A stretch of 64,000 nucleotides of DNA from Gonapodya sp. JEL0774 (Eukaryota > Monoblepharomycota > Monoblepharidomycetes > Monoblepharidales > Gonapodyaceae). A program made the position numbers and the translations under genes. Below, piece by piece: positions 40,916-64,000 of this stretch. Below the pieces are notes generated by a model. It was not told where the DNA came from and made no database searches. It saw only the letters and a program-made list of their open reading frames with translations. Numbering within the stretch: position 1 is the stretch's first letter; every line of letters begins with the position of its first letter. Location: positions 1 to 64,000 of the forward strand of contig JADIIX010000087.1 of the NCBI GenBank assembly GCA_027604505.1, given 5' to 3'.

Positions 40916-43287
40916 ATGGAGACTCCCCGCCGCCGCGCTCGTTCGCCTGTTGGATCTGCAGTTTCTGCGGGCTCCGAGAGTCAAGCAAACGACGCTGCAA
41001 GAAGGCGATCGGCTAAAGTGAGGGATTCTCGTTTTCTGCAGCTCTAGAGAAACCCAACCCCTCACACACTGCCCACTGCCATGTCCAACAGCGCGATGAC
41101 GCGATTCGCAGGAAAGCCGAGAAAGATTTAAGTAGTCGATCCCAGAGGAGGAGAACGGACCTCTCGAGGCGAGCCGGTGCTGGTGAAATTTCGGCGACAG
41201 GTGAGTCACGGTGACGATGGCACGAACGAGCACAGCTACTCTCCAGCTCAAGATCGTTCTATTTAACCTTGTACTATGTTCTCCTTCCAAAAAAGTCAAA
41301 AACCTCAACCCCAGCGAGGCCTTCACAGTTTTAGCCAATACCAACTGTATGGATGTCGCGCAGCTCATGGCGGCAAAAAGGACGGATTGCGTACTCGTTG
41401 TCGATACTCGCACCGGGTCAGCGAGTGGTAAAGTGACGAACGGGAAGTTGCTAGGCATTTTCACGGCAAAGGACCTTACCTTCAGAGTGGCGGGAGCGGG
41501 CCTCTCGCCAGCAGCCACGCTGGTCAGTTCCGTCATGACTCCGAACCCGACTACTGTTACATCAAAGCAAGAAGCAAGCGAAGCCCTCAACATAATGACT
41601 GCAGGTCACTTCCGCCATCTACCAGTGGTAGAGGAACCAGACCATGAAGACGGTGAATCTCGCCTGACTGGGGTCCTCGACGTCACCAAGGTTATGAAAG
41701 ATGGTATGGAGAGGCTGGATCGAGCGGCGGAGCAGTCTCGGAAGCTGAAGGAGGCACTTGATGCTTTGGAGTCTGAGTGGTTCGTTTGCCCACTTTCCAC
41801 CCCCTTCAAATTTTTGCGGATATCAAACCTGTGAACTCTTATTAGGTCCATCAACGCCGTCCACATTGCCCAGTATTCTGATGTTCTCCGAGACCGCCTC
41901 ACCGCACCGACAATGATGAGCGTTATTACCGAACAATCGCACGAAACTCCCATAGTAAACATTCGCGCCAACGTGAAAGATGCCATTATGGTCATGAAGG
42001 AGACCAAGCAAACGGGAGTCTCAATAGTAGATGACGAACGCAACCTTGCCGGAATTCTCACGACCAAAGATGTGGTTCTTCGGGTGATCGCAGCAGGTCT
42101 TGAACCCGAACGCACAGCAGTAGTGCGGGTCATGACACCGAAACCAGATGCTGTGCAATCGGACCTCACCATTTTGGATGGATTGAAGAAGATGCACGGT
42201 GAGCATTAAAGGAGTTTGAATGGCTCTGGCGAGTATCGCCACACTCGCAATGGAGTAGTCTGATGGTTTTCCTACCTTCCAGCCCACAGATACCTCCATC
42301 TTCCCATCATGGACGGAAGCAAATTTGTTGGAATGGTTGATGTCCTGGAACTGACATATTTGATTATGAACCAGGTTTGTTCCCCCTACACTTTCGTGGA
42401 AGCAAACGCACGTGAATACCAATACAGCCGTTTTTGTCAATGAAAACATTTTCCATTAGATGAAGACTATTCAGACGGAGAATCAGCAGGATGGTCCACC
42501 AACTATGGCTTGGAGCAAGTTCTGGGACACGACTATGGCGCCAGAAACTTCCGATTATGGCGGGGACGACCGCATGAGCCACCACGAGTCTTTCACCATA
42601 CGTGCGGAGGACAGTGTTTCCAATGTTGGTGGGGAGAATGAGAGTACCGTCTCCTACTCACAGAGAGGGCCGGGTCTGCAGACGTACAAGTTCAAGGACG
42701 CCGCGGGCAATGTTCATCGACTTAGAGGCAGCGCTGTCTCGTATGGAGAGCTTCACAGGGCGGTCGCCATGAAGCTCTCGAAAGACGAATCCGACTTTTC
42801 TCTCTCGTACGAGGATGATGATGGTGACCGCGTTCAACTCGCTACGGACGAAGATTTGGTGCAGGCGATTCAAATTGCAAAGAAACAGGGGTGGGCTAGG
42901 ATTATGCTTTCTGTCGGCGATCCGCGGCCAGTTTCGTCAAAGGCATCATCTTATGTCGACTTCAAGAGAGCTCTTGCGCCAGCTGCATCTCCTCCATCTA
43001 CTTCTCTGACGCAAGTCTCCTCCAGCGTTCCAGTAGTTTCCGTGTCTCCACACGTTGTGCCGCGAACCCAAACTGCTGCCCCTGTCCCAGTTCAGGAACC
43101 ACAACAGTCTGAGGGGAAGAAGGCGTCGATTGTCATTAAAACTGCGGGAACTCTGTGGCCTCCCAAAGGATTGGTTATGACGGACGACGGCCACGATTTG
43201 ACTCCTATGCTGGTGGGCGTTGGTGCTGGACTCTTGGTAGGGCTGGTAGTGGTTGTGCTATTTACGAGCGGTCAGCGTCGGCGGTAG
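40916..43287 (+). CDS. CBS-domain / PB1-domain protein with C-terminal membrane anchor (Mug70-like)
   Basis: Fission yeast Mug70 and related fungal proteins share this layout; their function is not settled. CBS pairs usually sense adenine nucleotides and PB1 domains pair proteins. The start METPRRRARSPVGSAVSAG is followed by a basic coiled segment. Four CBS motifs follow: AFTVLANTNCMDVAQLMAAK with LLGIFTAKDLTFRV; SSVMTPNPTTVTSKQEASEA with HFRHLPVVEE; PIVNIRANVKDAIMVMKETK with LAGILTTKDVVLRVIAAGLE; VVRVMTPKPDAVQSDLTILD with YLHLPIMDGSKFVGMVDVLE. The PB1 domain follows (YKFKDAAGNVHRLRG to DEDLVQAIQIAKKQGWARIM). The protein ends in one transmembrane helix (MLVGVGAGLLVGLVVVVLF) and a short basic tail, as in a tail-anchored protein. 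About five introns. Confidence 0.9.
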
Positions 43288-43489
43288 TTTGCTTATAATT
43301 GAAACGCAACCGTAGACTGATATTGCTTTTACACACAATTACATAATACTGAGTTTGGTTTTCAACAGTTTGTAAAGTCGAAAAGTTTGACAAGTTGCGT
43401 GTGTCGTTCCGTGGTACTTGCTTCGGTCTAAGTTGGGTTTGTGTGTGTTCTATTGAAACACCGCAACGCAAGCACAAATTAATTGAAGG

Positions 43490-44168
43490 ATGGAAACGTT
43501 ATTGGGGATTGTTGGGAAGGACTACGTTATTCTCGCGGCGGACGCAGTGTCTGCACGGTCTATTGTCGTCATGAAGCGCGGGGAGGACAAGTCGCGGGCA
43601 CTGAACAACCACAACCTGATGATGTTCACAGGCGAGCCCGGAGACGCCGTCAATTTCGCCGAGTTCATCCAGGCAAATCTAAAGCTTTACGAGATAAGAA
43701 ATGGGATTCCTCTTAGCACGAAGGGCATCGCCGGATATACGAGGAGGGAGCTTGCGGACAGTCTCCGAAGCCGGGTATGCTTTCACAGCCATTTGTCGCA
43801 GCGTTTTTCACTTGCTTTTTCTTGTGTGACTGACATGCTTTTGTGGCCACAATCACCAATTACAACAGAATGCGTACCAAGTCAACCTATTGATTGGCGG
43901 CGTGGATCCCAAATCCCACCACCCAGAGCTCTACTGGATGGACTATCTTGGCGCCATGGTGAAAGTGAACCATGGAGCGCACGGTTACGCTGCGTACTTT
44001 TGCGGATCGGTGTTTGACCGGTACTGGAAGGCTGATATGTCTTTGGAGGAGGGATTGGATCTCCTGAGGAAGTGTCTTCATGAGCTGAAGACCAGATTGG
44101 TACTCAGCCAAGCTGTCTATCTCATCAAAGTGATCGATAAAGACGGAATTAGAGAAGTCACCGTGTAA
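43490..44168 (+). CDS. PRE1: 20S proteasome subunit beta-4 (PSMB2/Pre1)
   Basis: A non-catalytic beta subunit of the 20S core. Exon 1 encodes METLLGIVGKDYVILAADAV, then SARSIVVMKRGEDKSRALNN and MMFTGEPGDAVNFAEFIQAN, with the conserved TRRELADSLRSR at its end. The intron (about 43776-43868, GTATGC..CAACAG) is followed by NAYQVNLLIGGVDPKSHHPE, LYWMDYLGAMVKVNHGAHGY and the C-terminal YLIKVIDKDGIREVTV. The protein is about 195 residues, the usual length. There is no propeptide with a catalytic Thr, which fits beta-4. It lies 202 bases after the CBS/PB1 gene on the same strand. Confidence 0.95.
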
Positions 44169-44289
44169 TTGATTGAGACATTCACACCTCTTGCAAATAT
44201 CGTTTATTCGTTCATATGGAATGCATTCATGCCGGCTGTGGAATGCAGCAGAACTGGGTTGGATTGACGTTACTGCTTGTGTCCTCGCT

Positions 44290-45120
44290 TCCACTGTGCC
44301 CGTTTCCCCAATGCTTAGTTCCCCCGTCCTTGATTATGCCAAACTCCCCTCACCAGTACCTGCTTCATATGCCCTCCCTTCTCCCATAATTGCATCCCAT
44401 GTCCTTGCTCTTCCCGTCATGGCTTCTTCCATATTTGTTCCCTGTGTCCTTGCTCTTCCCGTGTTCGCTTCTCCCATATTTGCTACACGTGCCCGTACTT
44501 CTCCCATACTTGCTTCTTGTGCCCTCGCTTATCACATCCGCGCTTCTCCCGTACCTGCTTCCTGTGTTCTCGCTTCTAACTTACCTGCTTCCCGCGTCCT
44601 CGCCTCTCCCGTCCTCGCTTCTAACTTACCTCTTTGCCGTGTCCATGCTTACCACGTCCTCGCTTCTCCCATACCGGTTTCCCGTGTCCTCACTTCCAAC
44701 GTATCTACTTCCCGTGTCCTTGCTACTCCCGTCCTCGCTGCGCCCCTACCTGCTTCCCATGTCCTCGCTTTTCCCGTACCTGCTTCCCGTGTCCTTGCAC
44801 TTTCCGTCCTCGCTTCTCCCGAACTTCCTTCCTGTCCTCGCTTCTCCCACACCTGCTTCCCGTGTCCTTGCTTTTGTGTCCTCGCTTTCCCGTCCTTGCT
44901 GCCCTTGTTCGTGCTACTCCGGTCCTCGTTTCTGCCGTCCTACCCTCTCCCGTTTTCACTGTTCCTGTCCTCGCTTCTTTCGTCCTTGGTTACCCCGCCG
45001 TGCTTCTCCCGTCCTTGCTTCCCCTGTCTCTATTGTCGCATCTCCCAAAGTCACATCTGCCCGCTGTGCTCTCCCGTCGTTGCTTTTCCTGTCCCTCCTG
45101 TTTCCCGTCTCTCGTTCATC
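44290..45120. repeat. degenerate pyrimidine-rich minisatellite, 15-bp units in 30-bp pairs
   Basis: Between about 44.55 and 44.85 kb the plus strand is built from 15-base units of two alternating kinds, close to GTCCTCGCTTCTCCC and GTACCTGCTTCCCGT, giving a 30-base higher-order period. Decayed units extend to about 44.29 kb on the left and 45.12 kb on the right. Because 15 is a multiple of three and the units lack stops, all three plus frames and some minus frames stay open for hundreds of codons. One frame reads as repeats of VLASPVPASR. The tract starts about 120 bases after the PRE1 stop. I treat it as non-coding. Confidence 0.85.
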
Positions 45121-45786
45121 CCGTTGTACTTTTCTCCCTGCCTCCTATATCCCGCTTCTCTTCTCCTGTTTGCTCCTCCCCACTTCCTTCCAACCTCCCG
45201 TCCACAGGCCCATGCTTCCACTCTCCTCTGACGGTGACAAACAATCGGCGAACACTTACTGAGAATCTTCACTTTTCATTTTCCGAGGCATTAGACGAAG
45301 AAAGGGAAGTTCCCTCGGGGCTGACTGTTCTTTGGTTTCATTTGCGAATTGGTGCGACAAACCCGTTGGCATTTGGGAGCATAGAATTCAATTCAGATCA
45401 TCTCCAGAATGCAAAATGCCCCGGAAGTGGCGCGACGAGACGTAATATATGAAACGTGAGAGGCTCAAACTTCGCGTCCGCGAAGAACAAGTCAAGGACA
45501 AAACGAACCCACATGTACGACCCAAAAGATCAAAAAATGTCAATTTGGGGCGATGAAATGGCCCTCCGTTTCCCGAGAACGTCTGTCCTTCGTGACTTTG
45601 GATCCAGACCAACTGCAGCGACACGGACGGTGACCAACGGGAACATGGGGAAGCTCGCTGAAGAGCAAACCACATTCTATGACTCATTGACTTGGCGAGA
45701 TCAAAATTTGGCGTTGGATCGACTCAAAATGGAGTTTTAACTGTCCTTGGAAACTGAAATTCTAAGCGCCTTAACCACCAAGTTTA
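45121..45786. other. intergenic sequence, no recognised gene
   Basis: About 670 bases following the minisatellite. Short open frames on both strands (for example 45456-45740 +, with MYDPKDQKMSIWGDEMALRF) overlap in antisense and show no family features. I see no RNA gene. Confidence 0.4.
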
Positions 45787-45925
45787 CGTCTTTTGACCGC
45801 ATAATAGAATTCTGGGGTACGCCATTTGGGTGGTCCCTGCTTCGGATGCTTTGCCACACCCCAGTTGAGAATTCTGGGGTGGCTCTATGGGGTGGTCTGG
45901 GTGTGGTGTCGATTTTCATTTTGAC
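45787..45925 (+). repeat. left arm of the inverted repeat
   Basis: Carries two copies of the GAATTCTGGGG core, at about 45808 and 45870, with GGGTGGTCC and GGGGTGGTCTGG between and after them. Confidence 0.6.
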
Positions 45926-46739
45926 AGGGTCAATCAGTATTTTTGGAGCACGGGTCCTGACGGCGCAATCCCGTAATATGATATGCGCCGGAATAGCTCT
46001 ATTCTTGTGTCAATTAATCTTCTGTTTTGCGTTTAATGCTTGGAACCGAGGTGGAGTTGGGTAGGTTATCGAGGGAGTGGACTGGTTGCTCTGGTTGAAA
46101 CTCAGACACCTTGTAGTTGCCAACCCTCGTGCAACTTTTGTTCACAACAAACCCACGCCACCATTCAATAAACGGGTGGCAAATCAAAGTTACCTACGAC
46201 AAATAATCGACCAGTTTCTCATCGTCGACTTGATCCCCTTCTCACATTTACAGAACGGGGAAGTCGCCTTCAGAGTGTCTCCAAGTCTTTCTTGGGTTGT
46301 ATGCAACTACAGTTGTATCATGGTGAGCAGTGCAGAGTCGGGACAGTGTTGTCAAATTGCTGCGTGTGCGTCGATGGACTGTCTGTGTCTGGAGACTTCA
46401 GACTTCATTTGAAAGCTGAACTGAAACAGTTAGGATATGGAGGGAGTAGTCACTGTATTTGATATGTTACAGAAACATGAACCTAAAACAAACTACGAGA
46501 AACGAGCGCAAGTGAGCCGACTGTTTTCTGCTCGTTACTTGCTTGTTTTGTAATTCCCAGGGTGCAGCAATCTGTTGGTGCGTCGAAATTCAAACGTGAA
46601 CGTGATTAGATGTCGACGCCAGGCATCAAAAAACTAATACGTTAAACTGGTCCTCAACATCATGAGTACTTCATATCTACTCAAAAGACTATAATACAGC
46701 ATGTCTACTGTATTCAGCGTCATACCACATGTCACCAAA

Positions 46740-46890
46740 CTCATTTTCGAAACCACCCCAGAATTCTCAAAAACGACCCCAGAACCAACCCAAACCACCC
46801 CAGAATTCTCATTTGGGGTAGTGGCGAAACACCCCAGGAGGCACCACCCCATGTGGGGTGCCCCAGAATTCACATATGCCGTCTTTGACC
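46740..46890 (-). repeat. right arm of the inverted repeat
   Basis: On the minus strand it reads GAATTCTGGGGCACCCCACA, then GAGAATTCTGGGGTGG twice. The CACCCCATGTGGGGTG palindrome at its centre could form a small hairpin. Confidence 0.6.
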
Positions 46891-48110
46891 CACACAAACA
46901 TTATGACCCAAGTAGGTGAATGCCCGTCAGTTCCGCAGCTCACACACTTCACCGGACCCGATTCCTTTCACAGTCAAACAATGGCGTCACAAAACGCTGC
47001 GAAACGTCTGCTGTGACCTTTTCGCTACTTCTCCTCTCTTCGGCCTCTCTCGATCCCATCAAGAGTGACCGGTCGTCGATCCAGTCCACCGATATGGAAT
47101 CAATCAAAGCGCCTCCATGGGAAAGCCCCGATTGGCATGATATATCACCTAAAATCCAGGTCTGACTCTTGAGAGCCACATTTTACGGAATGAATGAGAG
47201 AGAGTTGCTCGAGCGGAAGCTGAAAAGCGTTATGTCGAAGTCGAAAAGCGTCAGGTTGAATTAGAAAATCGACTGGTGGACAGCGAAGTGGCTTTTACGA
47301 ATTTAGAATAGTTTTTGGTGAGTACTGACGTCAACCAAAGTGATGCGGATGGCTATAACATGACCAGAAACGCTCATCCAAACCAGAACACGCTCGCGTA
47401 AAGTTAATGAAAGGGTGTGGGCCCAAGTTGGAAGACTTTCAGAATCGTCCGATCGACCTTTGGATTACCATTGCCACGTCTCGCAATCATTCGCCACACT
47501 TTCGTAGCCAGCTCCTCTTGTCCCACGAACGATGGAGAAATGACCAAGCGGGGCATCGAGCCTTGGCTCATGACATTGTGAACCTCCATATACGCCTCTC
47601 GTCTGCACACCACACTTCAGTTTTCAGCACCGACCGAGCAATACTCATCTTCCCCTCTTCGCTGAGCTCACTGCGTGACAGAATAGATTTGTTATTGACG
47701 ATGCCCTTTCCTACTGCAGTTCCTTCCCATCCGGGAAGAGCGCAACCTCGCCACCCTCTTCTACAAACTTCTCGCGATCCAGGGGTGACTGTGGACGATG
47801 GGATTGACATTCACGATGACACTTGAGTGATGTTGGCGATTGTATTTCAAGCTTGTTTTGCCCAGCTAGATATGCAATTTTCCTTATATACTTGGTTTGA
47901 CCTTCAAATACACGTTCTCAGTACGTTATTTCGAACCAAGCTACGCCGAGAGAGGTTCCCCCTTCTCCAAGCGTCTATTTGTCTTTTTATTCTGGAAACA
48001 TGGACACATACATGGACCTTTTCATGGACTCTTATCAATTCAATTAAACATTCTGTACGCTTTTTTTTGTGGCAAATGGGGATCTTATCCCCATCACTAT
48101 TCGTAATGCA
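46891..48110. other. 1.2-kb region upstream of the SHLD2-like gene, with a possible coiled-coil exon
   Basis: No complete gene is recognised. One stretch at about 47190-47311 (+) reads ARAEAEKRYVEVEKRQVELE followed by NRLVDSEVAFTNLE and a stop, which looks like the end of a charged coiled coil. A TGA lies three codons before it, so it would need an upstream exon. A candidate is the frame ending DWHDISPKIQ before GTCTGACTC at 47161. It could be a small gene or a relic. Frames at 47404-47826 on the two strands overlap each other and are not called. Confidence 0.35.
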
Positions 48111-50786
48111 ATGAGAGTTCTCTTCTCGTTTCCCCCACATAATCTACGTCCCTCTCTACTTGCTGCATCTCCCACAGAGCAGGAAACAGAAAATTTTGAG
48201 AGGGACTGTCAAACATTCATAACATGGAATGAACCGTCCTACTCTGTCAACTACGATTCTGCGTTACCATCCTACTCTCCGAGTGTAATCTCCATCACGA
48301 CCTCAAAGAGTCCATCTCCAGAACCACAACGGCACCCGGTTCGGAAGAAGTCCCAGCGAAGCTCCGGGGAATGGGATGATCCACACTATACGACAGTTCA
48401 AAACCATTCCAGCCGGCGCCATCCTAAATCCATTAAGCGACGGAGATTTGAATCTTCCAGTGACAATGTGGAAAGCGTGGGCTCATTCGACAATTCGGAT
48501 TTGAATCAAAGACAGTTGCTGTTTCCAGCTCCCAGAAACGGTGCACTCGAAGACGATATCACGGAATTTTCCGCTGTTCCGGGCGCAACTAAGACGTCTA
48601 TCGACATCAGGTTGAGACACACTACACCGGATGGAAGCTCAGACGGCCAATATGCGCGCGGAGATTCCGACTCGGACGGCTTCCTTCCTCACGACAATCG
48701 CCAATTGCCTGTTTCCGGATCTGCAATGGTCCCGATGCCCCTGTCCAATCGAGTTGATCAAAGGCCAACAGCACATCCTCTTAGTTTTGCTGACTCCGTT
48801 CAACTCAGGCGATCTCCGGATCGGAGACTCGGTGGAAGCAGATTCCCATCAAACCCGCTCCAGGGTTCGAAACTTGTGGACCTTCTGGAGTTTTCCTCGC
48901 CGGCTGAATCAGACCCAGGGGTACTTTATTCCGTTGTCGGTGCTATCACTCAAGTTAACGGTGGCGTCGAGGAAATTACATTCAAGGATGGCAGGAGTTC
49001 ACCCAAGTCCTCAATTGTTGTCTGCGATGAGAACAGTCAATACGTGGAAGTGACATTCTGGGGTCACTTGGCACCTCACACCCAAAAGTTATGCGTTGGC
49101 GATATTGTTCTGCTCGAAGGTGGGTGCTGCATTCTGACGCATTGGTGGAGACCACCCACAATGATTCACTTCGCAGCCATAAAGCGGAAAGTGTACAAGG
49201 CGCGTGGCTACGGCGCAACTATCTCGCGTTCCAAAATTTGGGTCGGTTCAAGGACCATCGGACCACCCATTGGTGAGGAAAGCTCCGGAGTCGACTTGTG
49301 CGACCCACTGCTCAAACACAGATCAATCTTTTCAAGTAGACTCGCAAGACCCTGGACCATCGTATATGCGCAGTATACCAGATGTCCGAGACCGTTTGGA
49401 TCTGGTAACAGCGTGGGCACAGCAAGACCCGTTTTTGCAAATAAAACGCAACATGGCCCGAACAGAAAAACCGCAGCCTGAAACCGAGAACAAAGGTAAG
49501 TAGGGCTTCTTATGTTCCGATGCGGTGGTTATGGATTCTGTGAGGATAAATGAGTGTGATTGTTCAGATCCTCAGGTGTATGACTACAAAAATGTTTGCG
49601 ACTTCCGCGATAATATGGTTCTAAATCTGGTATGTTTACCTTTGTTTTTGCTTGTTGTTGCCCCCTTGGAACCAATAACGGAGCCCCTCTGTTATTAGCT
49701 TGCTCGGGTCATATCTATTGAAGAAACTCATTCCAAGGTTGCAATCGTGGATCTCATCGATCGTATGGGGGGACAAGTCTCCTTGAAACTGTTGGTGGTT
49801 TGATAGTAATTTTGATTCTGACCATGGCTGTGGCTGACTGATTTGTTGTTGCAGCCAGAATAAGTCCGAGAACATTCTCGCGACGTTACGCGAATCTAAC
49901 GGGGATGTTTTGTCAATTTCTGGTGTCAAAGCGAGGATAGAACCATCGACAGGTCCTTATATACTAGATTTACTTGTGATTGAATGTTTGATAACCTTCT
50001 ATTTTCATGACAGGTCGATTTTTTCTCGAACAGTCCGCCGGAACGACTGTGCAAATCGTTACAGTTGCGGACAGTGGTGCATTTATTGCACGACGCATGT
50101 CAAACAAACGCCATTTCGCGGATGTAAAGGAGCTACAGCTGTCTGGTTTCAGTGGTAGGTGGTTTTATTGTTATGGGGCGTCCAAGTTGTGAGTGATGTC
50201 CACTTCCTGTGCTGACCGATCTTGTAAACCGCCATCAGGTGTGGCCGAGCTCAGTGCTCAGATCTCTGCGCTCCGGCTCCCTGGTATACCCGAAATACGT
50301 CAGTCGGATACTGGGATTGCCCCACCTTCACTCGACGAGGTGGCTTCTCTTGTGACTCTCCGATGTTCGACTTGTGGCTCTAAACCACACTCGGACCGCA
50401 ACGGTATACACACTTGCGTGCGCTGCAATCTTGCAGATCAAAAGCTTGAGTGGAGCTGGTGCCCATTTTCTCTCGATGTTGTTTCTCGTCCGGATCTCAC
50501 CGCAGTCCTTTCGGTGGAAGTCCCTGCTGGTGGTCCCTCAGCGTCTGTGCTTGCGGGATTATCACCATCCGTGTTTCGGAGTTTTGCGAACAAATCCAAG
50601 ACTGCAGATTTGGGCGCTTGCTTGAAGGAACTTGATCGCTTCACCAATTTATGTGCTGTTCTGACAGATCTTTCTGGGGCGACCGAACCCCTGAAGTTCG
50701 TGCTGTCATGTCATACTTGGAAGGACGCCAATGAGATTCCAATACGCAGTCAATACCGTTTGATCAATTTGATACCTGATCTATAA
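48111..50786 (+). CDS. SHLD2-like protein (shieldin subunit 2 / FAM35A homologue), three OB folds with a zinc site
   Basis: In vertebrates SHLD2 is the single-strand-binding subunit of shieldin, which protects broken DNA ends from resection. The resemblance runs in the same order along the protein. The N-terminus MRVLFSFPP may correspond to the short SHLD2 N-terminal motif; disorder follows to about 48.85 kb. OB1 has VLYSVVGAITQVNGGVEEIT, VEVTFWGHLA and VGDIVLLEGG. Across an intron near 49.13-49.20 kb come AQLSRVPKFGSVQ and SIPDVRDRLDLVTAWAQQDP. OB2 has LARVISIEETHSKVAIVDLI. The last exons have GVAELSAQISALRLPG, the zinc motif CSTCG-x10-HTCVRC, PDLTAVLSVEVPAGGP and the ending SQYRLINLIPDL. 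The zinc spacing and final motif match what I recall of human SHLD2. Homology is an inference from memory, not a search; other RPA-like OB proteins are the alternative. Five to six introns. Confidence 0.7.
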
Positions 50787-50967
50787 CACTCCTTCATGAA
50801 GGGAATTAGCAATCTGGCTTCTCATATTATTCGTATTCGTTTCCAACTCAATGTAGCAATGATGTCAATTTTGATGGGAGTTGAAAGAATGGGTTGTGGT
50901 CGTAAAGTTTGAGAGAAGCGGGATATCGTGGTTCACATGGCATAAGACCGAATTCTCCACGTAGACA

Positions 50968-51801
50968 ATGTCCACTCCGGCCAAGAGGTAAACTTTCCGT
51001 TCAACTTCACTCTGGATGCGTTCTCTTTTATCTCTGCTTCGTAGACGCCTTATGCGAGACTTCAAGAAGCTCTCCACGGATCCACCGGTGAGCTCTTCCG
51101 ATCCCTAGTCCGTTTCGAGCGTAATCATCGAGCCAGAGTACGTATCCATGGTTTTTTCTGTGATTCTCATATTCTATTACAACGGGACTCGCAGGTAAGT
51201 TCGGTTCATGATACCAATCGCTCCACTTGCAACTGTCTCATTTGCTTCCATTGTCGAAGGTCGGAGTCTCAGGAGCTCCCACACAGGACAACGTGCTACT
51301 GTGGAACGCTGTTATCTTTGGTCCTGAAGGTCGGTGGCCTGTCGTGGCAAAGAGTCCATATGAGCCTCGCCTTGAATGCTCTCACTTTTAGAGACACCTT
51401 TTGAGGATGGGACCTTTAAGCTTGTCCTCCAATTCGACGAATCATACCCCACCAAGCCCCCCCATGTTCGTTTCGTGACGAAGATGTTCCACCCGAACGT
51501 ATACGCGAACGGGGACCTGTGTCTAGACATTCTGCAAAATCGCTGGTCACCCACGTATGACGTAGCCGCCATTCTGACCTCAATTCAATCACTATTACAC
51601 GATCCCAACCCGGCTAGTCCCGCAAATGCTGAAGCCGCGAGGCTCTTTGTAGAGAACAGAAAGGATTACAATAGACGTGTCCGGGAAACAGGTATGCACA
51701 CATCTTCGCTTCTGGTACCTCAGCCCGCGTTCGAGGCACTCAAAGTCTCTTGTTTGTACCCGCGTAAATCTTACAAAGTCGAGGAAAGTTGGATGAGCTA
51801 G
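50968..51801 (+). CDS. RAD6: ubiquitin-conjugating enzyme E2, Rad6/UBE2A-UBE2B type
   Basis: Rad6 ubiquitinates histone H2B and, with Rad18, PCNA in damage tolerance. The start exon MSTPAKR ends in GTAAAC and joins [14 protein letters not shown]. Next come [20 protein letters not shown], then [40 protein letters not shown] and [20 protein letters not shown] with the catalytic Cys in LCLDIL. It ends [21 protein letters not shown] joined to VEESWMS, without the acidic tail of budding yeast Rad6. Length is about 150 residues, normal for UBE2A/B. It starts 181 bases after the SHLD2-like stop on the same strand and converges on CDC3. Confidence 0.95.
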
Positions 51802-56091: not shown

Positions 56092-59000
56092 TTAACTCGG
56101 CTTTGTTCGGTGAAGAACGTCCTGAATGAGCTCCCCCCACTCCTTCTGAAACCTATCCACCCCAAATCTCTGCTGTACATCTAATGAAGTATTTCGCATC
56201 TTTTGTTCAAGTTGACTGTCTCCGCGAAACGGCTTTTCTTCGAGCCACCACAGCACCTCCCGCGCCATCGCACGGGAGATACGTGCGCGCTCTAGCACCC
56301 CAGCTTTTCCTACTGTTGCGCAATCCGCGTCAATTAGCGAGCCAAGCATATGTCTAAAAGCTCCTGGAGCGTCATCACCTCCAGGCACTGCTTTTAATTT
56401 CTCGCTGTTGGTGTATATCTCCTCCACCCCACCACATCGCAATGTCACAGTGGGTACTCCGTAAGCAGCGGCTTCTATAAAAGTCAAAGGGATGCCTTCA
56501 TTACGTGAGGTTGAGAGCAATACAGAGTCACCGCGAGCAAGTATCCGTGTTACATTGTTCCGGGTTTGAGGTCCCAAAAGATCCACGAATTGATGGAAGT
56601 CCGGGGGATCAGAGCAGGTTTTGGATCCATCTATGCCTTCAGCACGACATCTTGCCCTCATGTAAAGCCTTTCCATCACCTCTCGCTCCATAGGCCCACC
56701 ACCAGCAACCACCAAACGAGGTGGCTTTGTTTTGCCGGCACCTCGAACAACCAGCGCCCCAATATCCAGCCACAGGAGCGGATCTTTCTGTTCGTCGAGG
56801 CGCCCTAAAAATAATACAAGAGGCCCCGTCCGCACAAGGTCAGACACATCTGATGGATCAGCATATCCTCCGTCAGGAGGGACGAATGGAGGACGGATGG
56901 CTCGAAGTTTTCTATCCTCTGTTATCGGATCGGCAAAGGGTCGGCCAAGCGACTGGTGCTCGACTGGCGATGGTTGACCAATATTCTGATGCCCTGCACG
57001 CACATTGTTAATGAGGTAGGATCGAAGATGCGCGCTGGCAGTCACACGCCCCTCAAGCGCCCACGAGGAGCGGCCAGATCGCCACTCCCAGTCAGACACT
57101 GAGTTGGGTGAAGGCATGTGGAGAATGTCAATTGCAGGCACACCAGGAATATCGGTACTACCGTGCCATCGCTCGGCGGCAGAGTAACCCGCTTCTGCGC
57201 GGCTCACAATAAGGAGCGACGCTTTTCTTGAGACAGCAAGGTAGTCTAATATCGCGTCTTGATGGGCGGTGTTGTTGGTCATTGTTTGAAGGTGCCATAT
57301 CTCGTTAGCAACAGTGCGGAAAACTTTCTCCCAGGGGTGATCAGCAAGATGACGTGCCACAACCAGGACGATGTGAGCAGTTGAATGCATTTTCTTGATA
57401 GCCCTGAGGGCTTCGAGATCATAGAGGTCGGCCCCTCCCATTGTCATCCATGGGAGGACATAGAGAACAACGAAACGATGTGGTTTTACTTGGTGGAAAG
57501 TTGGGTTGAAGGGGAAAATGGGATACGTTGCTGCATGTGACAGCAACGGACCTTGCGCTTTCATTGTATTACCAACAAATCGTTCCAGAATTGATTTGCG
57601 TTTCTCGCGATGGTAGCGAGAGAACAGAGGAACGTGGCGCTGCTTGGAATCGAGTGGCTGGTAGCAAGGCAGAAACATAGTTCTCCCAGTTGACTCGTTC
57701 CCGGGAGGTTTGGAAGTCCAGCGAGATTGAACAATAGTTGACAACTCTGATGAGTCGAAGTCACCGAAGAAGCTTGGATTATTCTTTCGCACTTCATCAT
57801 GAACGATCGAGTCATTGGGAGAGATTATTTTGATAGCTGCAGAATTTCCCAATGTGTGCCGCCGGTAGTGGAAAAGCGGCTCACGCAGAAGTGACCCAAT
57901 ATGACCAAATGCGGCCAAGCGCACCCAAAACTCCCAGTCCTTGCAAGAGGAGAAGCACACGTGACTAAAAGTAACTTCCGTTCTGACAAGCGGTCCTTAC
58001 CTCGAAGTACCGTATTTTCTCTCGTGAACACATTCCCCCGACTTGTAGAAAGGACGCTTTTGTAATCGCAGCCGTTGCAGTCAGATAATTTTCCTTGCGC
58101 AGCCGCTGTGCTGAATATTCTGCATATACTGTATCCTCATGATCACCGAAATGAACAACTCCCGTATAAACGAAAGAGGTTCGGTAACCAGATCGCCGAT
58201 TCTTTGGTTTTGGGAGAGAGTACGCGTCAGTGTCAGTTGTGATCCGCTGTCGAACCGTGATAGCGAGTTTTTCAAGGGCCATTTGGTCCAAATAGTCGTC
58301 AGGGTCGAGAAAGATTACATACTCGCTCTTCGAGAGGATGACTCCTGTATTACGCGTTTCAGAAAGACCCATGTTACGCCAGTGACCCACAAGCCTAACA
58401 GGCATGCAAGATGGGTCCACAGTGTCATTGTTGGAGGGAGGATACCAAAACAAACCGCCTGTCCGTTGTGGTCCCAACACCTGCCGCAGCATTGCTTCTG
58501 CTGCTGCGTCCGACCCATCGTTAATAATGATCACCTCAAAATCACTAAACGACTGAGAAGCAAGAGAGTCAAGAGTTTCGCGTAGCCAATTTTCTTCCCA
58601 AACATTGTAAAACGGAACAATGACCGAAATGGCAGGACTCCACAGTCGCTTCAAGCGTGAAAAAGTACGTAGCGGTGGAAGCCCTGGAAGTTCTTCTACG
58701 AATGTGGTGGATTCGGTAGGTCCAACAAAGAGGTGATAATTGTGGAACAGCAGGGGTACAGGGAGGTCCATCCCCCACACATGAGCAGTCGCCATTCTTA
58801 TCCACATACTTCTAAGCGCCTGTCGTGGTGTGGAATAAGGCTCATTCGACAAGTCCTCCTGCCAAAGTTCTGCGAGACAGACAGTCCATCCAACAACTGC
58901 GGCACTCTCAAGGAACAGTTGCCGAGCGTCATACACGTACGAAGGAGATGAGAGATTTAATCTTTCAAATTTGTTTGAACTCTCAAACTGGAAATCTGAC

Positions 59001-59761
59001 GCGAAGAGTGCAAATTCGTAGGCGTTCCATTGCATTGTGGGTAATTCTTCAAACGTCCCGTTTTCGTGACGCACAAGAGCACCAGGCCGCATCCAGCAAG
59101 TCTCTGTTCCAGCATCCTTTACGATACCGTCGTCAGACGATAGATCAGCCGCTATCAGTGCCTTTAGCATTGTCGCGACCGCGTCGTTTGAAACAAAGCT
59201 CTGACATCCGTCCAGGTACAAAATGGCGGTGTCCCTTGAACTATGCAAGGCGCTGGGACACGGGGCTAGCGTGTTAGAGATAAAGTAGTGCGCTTCACGG
59301 CGTCTTTGCACAAAGTTCCAGTGTGGACTTTTCGACCACATCAGGTGAACTCCCACATTGGAAGCTTCATTAAGCCACGCGCCGGTCACTGGAAGTAAAC
59401 TCTCATCCACATTGTCACTGTTGTAGGCATCAGCATCAATTAGTAGCACGATTGAAATGTTATGGCGGTCGTCTAGGAAGGTCTGCTGTTGGATGGAACC
59501 CAGCGCAACCGACGCCGAGGGTACATCAGGGCACGAGAGAGAAACAAGCACGCATTTAGGCGAGTCGGGAATGTACTGTCTGATCTCAAATCTGTGAGAA
59601 AGAAACGTTGGGGATGCTGGATATCTGATCACCCACAAGTTCGCTTGCTTTGGAATGGAATGAAATTCTTCACTCTGGAAGGGTGACTGCCATCGACGTA
59701 TTGCAGCAGCAAAAAACCCCATTGCAATGGTCGAAAAAAGTATCACGCGGGTGGTAAACAT
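56092..59761 (-). CDS. multi-modular glycosyltransferase: degenerate GT2-like + GT2 + GT4, type II membrane anchor
   Basis: The ATG at 59761 gives MFTTRVILFSTIAMGFFAAA, a likely signal anchor, so the enzyme should face the Golgi/ER lumen. Three modules follow. (1) About 59.6-58.75 kb has a GT-A-like opening (CVLVSLSCPDVPSASVALGS, then VLLIDADAYN) whose later motifs look weak. (2) A GT2 domain has ISVIVPFYNVWEENWLRETL, IIINDGSDAAAEAML and FLDPDDYLDQMALEKL with the DxD-type motif; across the only clear intron (about 58004-57960) YFE joins DWEFWVRLAAFGH. (3) A GT4 domain, GT-B fold, has PLVLFLGRLDEQKDPLLWLD, VVAGGGPMEREVMERLY and SRNEGIPLTFIEAAAYGVPT with the E-x7-E motif. About 1,200 residues with almost no introns, unlike its neighbours. 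Acceptor unknown; cell-wall or surface glycan synthesis is plausible. Confidence 0.82.
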
Positions 59762-59993
59762 CTGTTGTGGGAGATACAACGCATGGGGGGAAAGCTCTCC
59801 GCCGATGCAGAACTGCTGATCCCACCACACAACTGCTCCCACAACAATGAAACAATGTCAATATTACAATCGGACAAGACTAGCGTCTGCTACAACAGTG
59901 CTATATGAGAAAGTTCAGCTCCCAAAATTTTCGAGTGACAGCTCATATCTACGACTGGCGACGTATTTGCAGAAGGCATCCAATTACCAAACA

Positions 59994-61182: not shown

Positions 61183-64000
61183 ATGCCGCAGACGCTTATC
61201 AAGTCGAAAAGCATCGAAACGGCCTCTCTCCACGCTCAACTGCCTCTCATACAGCGTCTTTACGTCTGGCCATTCTTCTTCGTCTACTCCGCTTATGTCC
61301 ACGTCCTCGTTGTCAAATATGATGAATGGCTTCAATCCAGTGAAGCCGCCACTTTGGCATTCATTATTTGCTTTAGTCTGAACGTTCTGGCCGTACTAGC
61401 GTGTCAATGGAACGTCACAATTAAGGCAAACGTGGTTTGCCGAAAGGTAAGCAAGTGTACGGGATTCTAGGAGCCATCAAAAGGCGATGAAGCTCTATCT
61501 TCATCGTGAATGAAGCTGCAGTGGTTGCTCAACCTTTTTCGCTGTTAAAATTCATCCCAGGTTCATAATCCGTTCGTTGCGGACTACGTTCGTGTCATAC
61601 CCGTTGCACACCATGGTTCTGGTGCGCTTTGTGAACTCAAGAAGTCTCTTTACCGAGATCCCAAAACTGCCAAGGTCAGTTTTTACTCTGCGTTCTTGTC
61701 GCCATCCTGACCTGACATCAGAATACCTTCGTTGGTTCCCAACTCTTGGACAACACAGCTCACGTCACAGGTGTACTTCTTCTTCCAGAAAAAGAAGTAC
61801 ATTTTTGATAATGATACTAAGATGTTTGTGAAACTGTACTATCCGACCGCCGAGTCCCATACTCTCGGGGTGTTTCAAACCGCTCGAGGTTTCTCAACGG
61901 AAGAGGAGCTCAAACACATTGTAGATAAGTACGGACCAAATAAGTAAGTCCATTTTCGCACATTCTTTCCAGTGTATAGTTTGGGTATCAAGGAGGCATC
62001 CTTCTACAGGTTCGATATCCCCATTCCCACGTTCCAGGAACTATTTCAAGAGCACCTCGTCGCTCCTTTCTTCGTGTTCCAAATATTTTGCGTGGGACTT
62101 TGGTTTTTGGATGATATGTGGTACTACTCTCTGTTCACCTTGGGAATGCTATTCGTTTTCGAGTCAACAGTCGTGATGCAGGTGAGAGGAACACTAAATT
62201 CTCATATCCACGAACGCCAATCATCGCTCTACATGTGATCGCAAGCGCCTTCAAAACCTGAAGGAAATGCACTCTATGGGCATTAAACCCTACGAAATCA
62301 ACGCTTTTCGGCAAGGCCAGTGGGTCAAGGTCTCTACTGACCAACTCTTTCCCGGTGACCTCGTTTCGATTGTTCGGACTAAGGAGGATTCCGCTGTACC
62401 TTGTGATGTCCTTCTTCTTGACGGGACTGCTATTGTCAATGAAGCAATGCTCTCTGGAGAATCGACGCCTCTGCTCAAGGAGTCTGTTGCTCAATCGGAC
62501 CCCCAAGAAGTGCTTGACATTTCGTCAGTTCACAAGAACAATGTGCTTTTCGGTGGTACGAAAGTGCTTCAGGCTACGCCACCGACGGTTCGACTGGATA
62601 TCGTTCCCCCTGATCATGGATCTGTGGGATATGTGCTCCGAACTGGTTTCGGGACCTCCCAGGGGAAGCTCGTGAGAACAATTTTGTACAGTTCGGAGCG
62701 CGTCACTGCCAACAACATCGAGGCATTTGTCTTCATTATCTTCTTGCTTATTTTTGCGATTCTTGCGTCAGCATACGTGTGGGTTGAGGGGACCAAAAAC
62801 GAATTGAGGAAAAAGTCCAAAATTTTGCTCGACTGTGGTGAGTTCTCTTATGTGGTTTTTGCCAACGGTCCGCACTGTTTTACCTAGACCCGTGTGAAAT
62901 CTTCCAATCATTGGTAACGATCTTTTAGTACTCATTATCACCTCTGTGGTCCCACCGGAATTGCCCATGGAGCTCTCACTCGCCGTTAATAACTCTATCA
63001 TCGCGCTTTCTCGGGTCTACATTTTCTGCACTGAGCCGTTCCGTATTCCGTTTGCCGGACGCCTGGACGTGCTGGCTTTTGACAAGACCGGAACACTTAC
63101 CGATTCCTCCCTTGTCGTGGAAGGTGTCAGTGGACTCGACCCTGATCCGAAAACAATTCGCAAGCCGCTGGATATTCCGTCTGAAACCACCATGGTCTTA
63201 GCTGCGGCGCATGCCCTCGTGTTTGTGGATGATGCAGTGGTTGGGGACCCAATGGAACGTAGCACAGTTGCTTCTGTCGGATGGCTGGTTGGTCGGAATG
63301 ATGTGGTGACAGGCCAAAAGGGAGCCACACTCAAAGGTGGTTTAAAGATTCTCCGTCGCTTCCAGTTCGCGTCAGCACTGAAGCGGATGTCTTCGGTGGC
63401 ATCCTACGACAATGGAAGCGGAAGCTCTGTGTACTATGTTGCTGTAAAAGGCGCCCCAGAAACTCTCAGGGGAATGTACTCCAACCTTCCTGCGGGTTAT
63501 GACGCGTGCTACAAATATTGGGCGAGAAGGGGGAGCAGAGTGCTGGCACTTGGCTACAAACAAGTCCGAGGTTCCGATGTGAGATGGTATTGTTGTTGGA
63601 TGTGGGCTGCGGCGGAGAGCTAACTTCGAACTTACTGCGACCAGACCAAAGATTTGAGCAGAGAGCAGGCGGAGTGTGCATTGAAATTCGCAGGTTTTCT
63701 TATTTTCCATTGCCCACTGAAGCCGGACACTGTTGAGGCTGTGAAAGCTCTGAGCAAATCTTCGCACAGAGTACGAGTTATTTTCGTTAAACAATTGCTG
63801 TGTGTCCGAGAATTAAACGTTTTGAATCAGGTAATCATGATCACAGGCGATAATCCTCTCACTGCCAGCCATGTCGCCGCTGAAGTTGAGATCACCAAAC
63901 GGGAAGTGCTCATCCTTGAAGAAAATTCAACAGGAGGTAAGGCGACGCTTTGATTCGAATGATTGCACAATCACGACAGCTTTTGGGTAGACCTCACTTG
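61183..64000 (+). CDS. SPF1: P5A-type ATPase (SPF1/ATP13A1), 3' part beyond the window
   Basis: P5A-ATPases sit in the ER and remove misinserted or mitochondrial tail-anchored transmembrane helices. The start [20 protein letters not shown] is followed by the first membrane hairpin ([38 protein letters not shown]). Then come [39 protein letters not shown] and the [20 protein letters not shown] helices. The actuator domain has PGDLVSIVR and [16 protein letters not shown]. The membrane signature [19 protein letters not shown] is specific to P5A. The phosphorylation site is [16 protein letters not shown] and the nucleotide domain contains [12 protein letters not shown] and [12 protein letters not shown]. 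The hinge is close to [14 protein letters not shown] near 63.84 kb. The frame is open to about 63.95 kb where an intron seems to begin; the C-terminal membrane helices lie beyond the right edge. About seven short introns. Confidence 0.95.

Follow-up and report, generated by a model that had tools for sequence, protein, structure and literature searches.

A candidate fungal homologue of shieldin subunit 2 in Gonapodya sp. JEL0774

In vertebrates, shieldin subunit 2 (SHLD2), also called FAM35A or RINN2, shields the ends of broken DNA. In the portions of the literature available to us, FAM35A is described as a protein of vertebrates, or of vertebrates and a few invertebrates. Strand 1 of human SHLD2 (V7, I9, F10, W11) is sandwiched between SHLD3 and the open form of REV7, according to the available parts of PMC7181697 and PMC7923543, and P14A/P17A abolishes REV7 binding (PMC6156606, in part). 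A comparable arrangement of domains has been described for SPIDR, in which a disordered tail precedes a C-terminal trio of OB folds that includes a zinc ribbon (PMC11377751, in part). Among the matches listed from the openly licensed literature (titles and abstract starts), no report of a fungal SHLD2 was found.

Gonapodya belongs to the fungal class Monoblepharidomycetes. The assembly of Gonapodya sp. JEL0774 comprises 25.0 Mb in 381 contigs, and the window analysed here is a stretch of 64,000 nucleotides from one of these, C87. Within it, the forward strand carries a gene of eight exons (48111-49119, 49177-49272, 49340-49495, 49568-49629, 49699-49790, 49855-49952, 50014-50154 and 50239-50786). 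The first in-frame ATG lies at 48111 and the stop codon finishes at 50786; removal of seven short GT-AG introns leaves a single open frame of 733 residues. When splice sites were enumerated, four combinations remained open, differing only in intron 5, and there we picked the variant used by a deposited protein of the same organism, P0001, which is named ubiquitin-conjugating enzyme E2 2. P0001 is a chimera (window 49366-51801). It begins at residue 378, in exon 3, runs to residue 704 of the SHLD2-like protein, omitting the final 29 residues, and continues into the product of a downstream UBC gene (50968..51801, forward strand, start judged by eye; Pfam UQ_con, 167 bits on P0001), a neighbour that lies outside the SHLD2-like gene. 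The fusion is an error of public annotation, and since OB1 is missing from P0001, the likeness to SHLD2 may have been hidden. Independently of our model, P0001 is spliced identically at introns 3, 4, 5 and 7; its support is limited to these four, while introns 1 and 2 are predicted. Intron 6 is placed differently, giving STGPYILDLLSAGTT in P0001 and STGRFFLEQSAGTT in our model; the donor is weak in both and the P0001 variant falls outside the enumeration, so the position of this intron is uncertain.

One could suppose that the locus holds two genes, one made of exons 1-2 and the other of exons 3-8, and that the real protein consists of OB2 and OB3 alone, as deposited. P0001 does begin within exon 3, and its splices do not corroborate introns 1 and 2. 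Nevertheless, intron 2 has the donor GTGAGG and splicing there joins the frames, exons 1-2 contain no stop, and the product of exons 1-8 is colinear with SHLD2 when aligned; P0001, moreover, is itself wrong at its 3′ end, where it is fused to the UBC gene. We consider a division into two genes very improbable, and treat exons 1-8 as a single gene in what follows.

The domain order of the 733-residue protein, all coordinates being on the forward strand, is that of SHLD2: tail, OB1, helices, OB2 and a zinc-bearing OB3. The N-terminal tail (residues 1-254; 48111..48872) is probably disordered, judging from its composition. OB1 (about residues 268-360; 48912..49247) is divided by intron 1 and contains the GDI(I/V)LL motif of SHLD2. 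At the junction of OB1 and OB2 lie putative linker helices, VRDRLDLVTAWAQQDPFLQIK... (about residues 385-408; 49387..49458), which are helical in a low-confidence model of P0001 and are aligned by hhalign with LQDLLAYVSSKHSYL in vertebrate SHLD2. OB2 (about residues 438-521; 49618..50063) is spread over exons 4-7. The remainder of the protein (residues 548-733; 50142..50786) holds OB3, the zinc ribbon and a C-terminal DxNxxP stretch. Here, the features shared with SHLD2 are SGV..AQIS.L where OB3 begins, CxxC...DxN.I...CxxC, and a C-terminal D.N..P....(F/Y).L(L/I). The four candidate zinc-ligand cysteines, C594-x2-C597-x13-C611-x2-C614 (50364..50426), are conserved in all 27 rows of an alignment with vertebrate SHLD2, and their spacing, Cx2Cx13Cx2C, is nearer to the Cx2Cx14Cx2C of SHLD2 than to the Cx4Cx13Cx2C of RPA1. 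The differences are considerable as well. Identity to SHLD2 is about 23%, the protein is shorter than its human counterpart (733 versus 904 residues), OB2 can be aligned but without significance, and the REV7-binding motif HxFxGAP is not recognisable.

An earlier, sequence-only reading of this DNA had pointed to several of these motifs. The linker motif VRDRLDLVTAWAQQDP, the cysteine pairs CSTCG...HTCVRC and the terminal NLIPDL are all present in the spliced protein. Of the VGDIVLLEGG that it placed in OB1, VGDIVLLE stands but the GG lies inside intron 1 (49120-49176, 57 bases), which is itself open in frame and had been read through; the spliced protein continues VGDIVLLE-AIKRK. Two of the human motifs that it cited, GDIILL and CAKCG...QCFSC, are found in the SHLD2 record P0005, but this ends in DFYSDI and not in FYPDI.

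To compare the protein with SHLD2 as a family, we assembled a set of 168 SHLD2 proteins, each with a SHLD2 Pfam domain. Human SHLD2 as query returned 615 proteins at E ≤ 1, of which the best 120 of 615 were taken, and a second SHLD2 search returned 52 matches (48 new SHLD2 proteins, 3 repeats and P0001). Several bony fish are represented among the SHLD2 records returned, and 22 proteins, from placental and marsupial mammals, birds, coelacanth and bony fish, were chosen from the 168. By BLASTP, 21 of these 22 match the Gonapodya protein at E ≤ 1 and 16 at E ≤ 0.01. The best is SHLD2 of Betta splendens (P0147), at 52.4 bits in a single alignment of residues 243-729 with Betta residues 292-777, as against a maximum of 31.6 bits when residues 255-733 were shuffled 1000 times and compared with the same 22 proteins. 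Compared with orangutan SHLD2 alone, the protein aligns in two colinear pieces (30.0 and 27.7 bits). A profile of the 22 vertebrate sequences scores 22.5 bits on the core, 15.7 on OB1 and 14.1 on OB3, where the best of 3000 shuffles, about a third of which scored high enough to be reported, reached 5.6, 9.4 and 5.0 bits, respectively; on OB2 the same profile scores 0.0 bits (best shuffle 5.9). With a narrower profile, built from 93 of the 120 and purely mammalian, the core scores 10.9 bits (best of 2000 shuffles 5.7), and OB3 scores 5.4 bits, below the best of 2000 shuffles (7.3). Profile-profile alignment with hhalign, whose E-values refer to one comparison and not to a database, pairs residues 269-732 with the SHLD2 core at a probability of 96 (E 1.9e-9), OB3 alone at 92 (E 6e-7) and OB1 alone at 66 (E 5.5e-5). 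For OB2, it yields a probability of 1.7 at the wrong place, which is not a credible match.

In Pfam, the SHLD2_OB1 model (PF21669, cut-off 26 bits) gives 25.9 bits on OB1 of the 733-residue protein and REPA_OB_2 gives 26.3 bits, a tie in which both fall just under their cut-offs. When the whole genome was searched, SHLD2_OB1 found this locus only, at 26.1 bits and thus above the cut-off, with one candidate scored. Among 14 control genomes it matched one, the archaeon Methanocaldococcus jannaschii, below the cut-off, so that it is able to detect OB folds of the RPA type, if weakly. The models for SHLD2 OB2 (PF22779) and SHLD2_C (PF15793) find no match on the protein, the latter even at E 10. 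A genome search with SHLD2_C was likewise empty; it is uninformative, because none of the 14 control genomes gave a match either. The Gonapodya genome searched with Betta SHLD2 returned nothing, so that even the SHLD2-like locus was missed.

The expectation that SHLD2 would be the best match across all three OB folds was thus not borne out, OB2 having no SHLD2 similarity and OB1 being tied in Pfam with REPA_OB_2. The OB2 region nevertheless scores 19 bits with the Pfam model tRNA_anti-codon (cut-off 27; 11.7 bits on P0001), and in the P0001 structure model its strand order is E-E-E-H-E-E-E at a pLDDT of about 65-83. That model is poor overall (pLDDT 55.3, pTM 0.34), and was used for OB class alone. 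Probably, an OB fold occupies the OB2 position, as a domain that is present but too diverged to be assigned to SHLD2. As for the central claim of the sequence-only reading, that the gene is a SHLD2 homologue, the evidence agrees: OB1 and OB3 match SHLD2 separately and in the right order, and one colinear alignment joins the folded part to fish SHLD2, while RPA1 and MEIOB give noise. Nor is the match confined to the zinc fold, since OB1 matches SHLD2 on its own. We therefore favor reading the gene as a fungal homologue of shieldin subunit 2, and from these sequence comparisons we put its probability at roughly 0.72.

The main alternative on the side of descent is that this is some other lineage-specific RPA1-like OB protein, a derivative of the RPA70, MEIOB, SPIDR or RADX type, whose resemblance to SHLD2 follows because all these families share RPA70 A-B-C ancestry. 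In favor of this alternative, the OB3 structure model matches OB-C of RPA70. RPA 4gop_C heads the PDB folds matched by the P0001 model, a list used for OB class alone. Fold comparison cannot separate SHLD2 from RPA70, because the PDB offered the SHLD2 N-terminus only: a sequence search with orangutan SHLD2 retrieved 6kto, 6wwa and 7l9p, all N-terminal, plus one chance match. This also explains why no SHLD2 appears among the fold matches. The same search with the 733-residue protein at E ≤ 10 gave one low-complexity match and no OB protein. The REPA_OB_2 score of 26.3 bits on OB1 also leans toward an RPA1-like protein, though two RPA1s reach 112 and 126 bits with this model.

Sequence comparison tells against it. 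The family call was made by sequence against SHLD2, RPA1 and MEIOB, and through Pfam alone for SPIDR, RADX, HROB and SPATA22. By BLASTP, two RPA1s (human and Gonapodya) score 26.2 bits and MEIOB (hand-entered sequence) 24.3 bits, both within the range of their shuffles (up to 36.2 and 29.3 bits, respectively) and well below the 52.4 bits of SHLD2; there were one or two targets for RPA1 and MEIOB and 22 for SHLD2, a difference for which the shuffles allow. Gonapodya RPA1 scores 1.6 bits on the core of the 22-sequence SHLD2 profile, 1.8 on OB1 and 5.1 on OB2, with no match to OB3; human RPA1 scores at most 0.4 bits on any part, and in BLASTP against the 22 SHLD2 proteins it yields one row at chance level (29.6 bits). 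SHLD2_OB1 is absent from the two RPA1s and MEIOB, and the Pfam models for RPA find no match in four SHLD2 proteins scanned. On the 733-residue protein, the Pfam scan finds no Rep-A_N, Rep_fac-A_C, OB_MEIOB_N or DUF4503, where Rep_fac-A_C gives 183-201 bits on the two RPA1s and OB_MEIOB_N gives 202 bits on human MEIOB (hand-entered sequence). DUF4503, which we take to be the SPIDR domain, was found in neither the protein nor the genome, in a search in which no control genome gave a match and no SPIDR control sequence was included.

Point by point, RPA1 differs in the first half of its zinc site, which is Cx4C in RPA1, including Gonapodya's own, and Cx2C in the SHLD2-like protein; the genome's RPA1 is encoded separately, on contig C103. 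MEIOB shares part of the layout, having three OB folds, a Cx2C...Cx2C site in the third and a REPA_OB_2 match (34.4 bits), but its zinc spacing is Cx2Cx10Cx2C (hand-entered sequence) rather than Cx2Cx13Cx2C, it carries the OB_MEIOB_N domain that the fungal protein lacks, and its BLASTP score stays within shuffles. SPIDR, compared by Pfam and by its published description, shares the order of tail, three OB folds and zinc ribbon (PMC11377751, in part), which favors an RPA1-like origin; the difference is that the fungal protein has no DUF4503. Taken against the families compared, RPA1 and MEIOB, the Gonapodya protein more closely resembles SHLD2, and descent from another RPA1-like family appears unlikely. 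Elsewhere in the genome, Rep_fac-A_C also matches outside RPA1, on contig C48 at 112993-113169 (L006 / L012; 24 bits, under its cut-off), which could reflect another zinc-ribbon OB protein or chance.

If the gene is a SHLD2 homologue, how might its product act? By analogy with SHLD2 and RPA70, a protein with this layout of disordered-looking tail, OB1, helical linker, OB2 and zinc-ribbon OB3, which is colinear with its vertebrate counterpart and shows significant similarity to it in OB1 and OB3, would attach through its OB folds to the single-stranded DNA of resected break ends. The tail may tether it to a partner, for instance REV7, which a RIF1-like protein may in turn bring; both roles are suggested by the presence of these proteins in the genome. 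The outcome would be to limit further resection and to favor end joining or fill-in. REV7, which the sequence-only reading had proposed to look for, was found on contig C8, where it matches human REV7 (hand-entered query) in two pieces, at 48.1 and 37.7 bits; MAD2 scores 32.3 bits on the first piece. A RIF1-like protein is indicated by Rif1_N matches on contig C11 (40.6 bits together). A second HORMA gene, on contig C63 (L001, L002 / L013; 42.9 and 34.7 bits), is at chance level to REV7 and MAD2 by tblastn and is possibly a meiotic HORMA protein.

Of these steps, the link to a partner is the least secure, since the tail has no recognisable form of the known REV7-binding motif. By eye, residues 1-9 from the predicted start, MRVLFSFPP, look like the REV7-binding strand, and one may pair VLFSFPP with HVFLGAPP and ITWNE with LTWSQ. 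This candidate failed against a profile of 44 vertebrate SHLD2 N-termini, on which the tail, taken from the predicted start, scores -0.1 bits and 979 of 5000 shuffles score equally well or better. A regex search of the forward frames in 42001-48300 found no upstream exon with a REV7-binding motif. In the genome, searches for SHLD1, for the 53BP1 Tudor domain and for Stn1 were empty; no control genome gave a match in any of them, and for SHLD1 and 53BP1 the empty result is uninformative about absence. The SHLD3 pattern FxPWFP, the REV7-binding motif of that protein, occurs at four places genome-wide and at four in a reversed control, which is chance level and likewise uninformative; the open frames around three of the four span 8-22 codons. 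The fourth (L017, contig C163, 6661-6677) is an FEPWFP whose open frame runs to 137 codons and has no Met ahead of the motif, at a genome-wide frequency expected by chance.

These results bear on a reading that shares the homology with ours and rejects the partner step alone, namely that the protein descends from the same ancestor as SHLD2 but acts outside shieldin, for example as a single-strand DNA protein of telomeres or replication without REV7. It draws on the REV7-binding motif, SHLD1, SHLD3 and 53BP1 having gone unrecognised, in searches that were at chance level or had no positive control. Set against it are the REV7 and RIF1-like proteins of the same genome, though both have other functions too, and the co-evolution of SHLD2 and RIF1 reported for vertebrates (PMC6138439, in part). 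We regard a role outside shieldin as rather unlikely; membership of the Gonapodya protein in a working shieldin complex is unproven.

The SHLD2 homologue proposed here is a new member, in an unexpected lineage, of a family that is itself already known. Protein searches found no second fungal copy, although they reach only relatives of similar length that share short words. With a SHLD2-like protein in a zoosporic fungus, part of this shield may go back beyond the animal-fungus split. Tentatively, and at somewhat less than even odds, a shieldin-like module of SHLD2, REV7 and RIF1 was present in the animal-fungus ancestor, has persisted in Monoblepharidomycetes and, in most fungi, either disappeared or goes unrecognised, with vertebrate SHLD1 and SHLD3 being later or fast-changing additions. 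A fungal homologue would make the single-strand DNA-binding arm of shieldin older than that split and provide a non-vertebrate setting for studying REV7-dependent repair choice. It would also bear on a question raised in the available part of PMC11616998, how yeast Rev7 favors end joining without a known shieldin.

Other features of the window were noted in passing. Upstream of the gene, 44378-45021 is a pyrimidine-rich array of tandem repeats, open in three forward frames, whose periods of 15, 30, 45, 75 and 120 bases are nested, and the GC skew of 44001-46000 is -0.208. Just upstream of this array, an open reading frame at 43487-44017 looks, by eye, like a proteasome beta subunit. Downstream, two long open reading frames in overlapping frames of the reverse strand (56092-59857) resemble glycosyltransferases by eye, and 62198-63623 contains exons of a P-type ATPase, likewise judged by eye, with a visible DKTGTLT motif.
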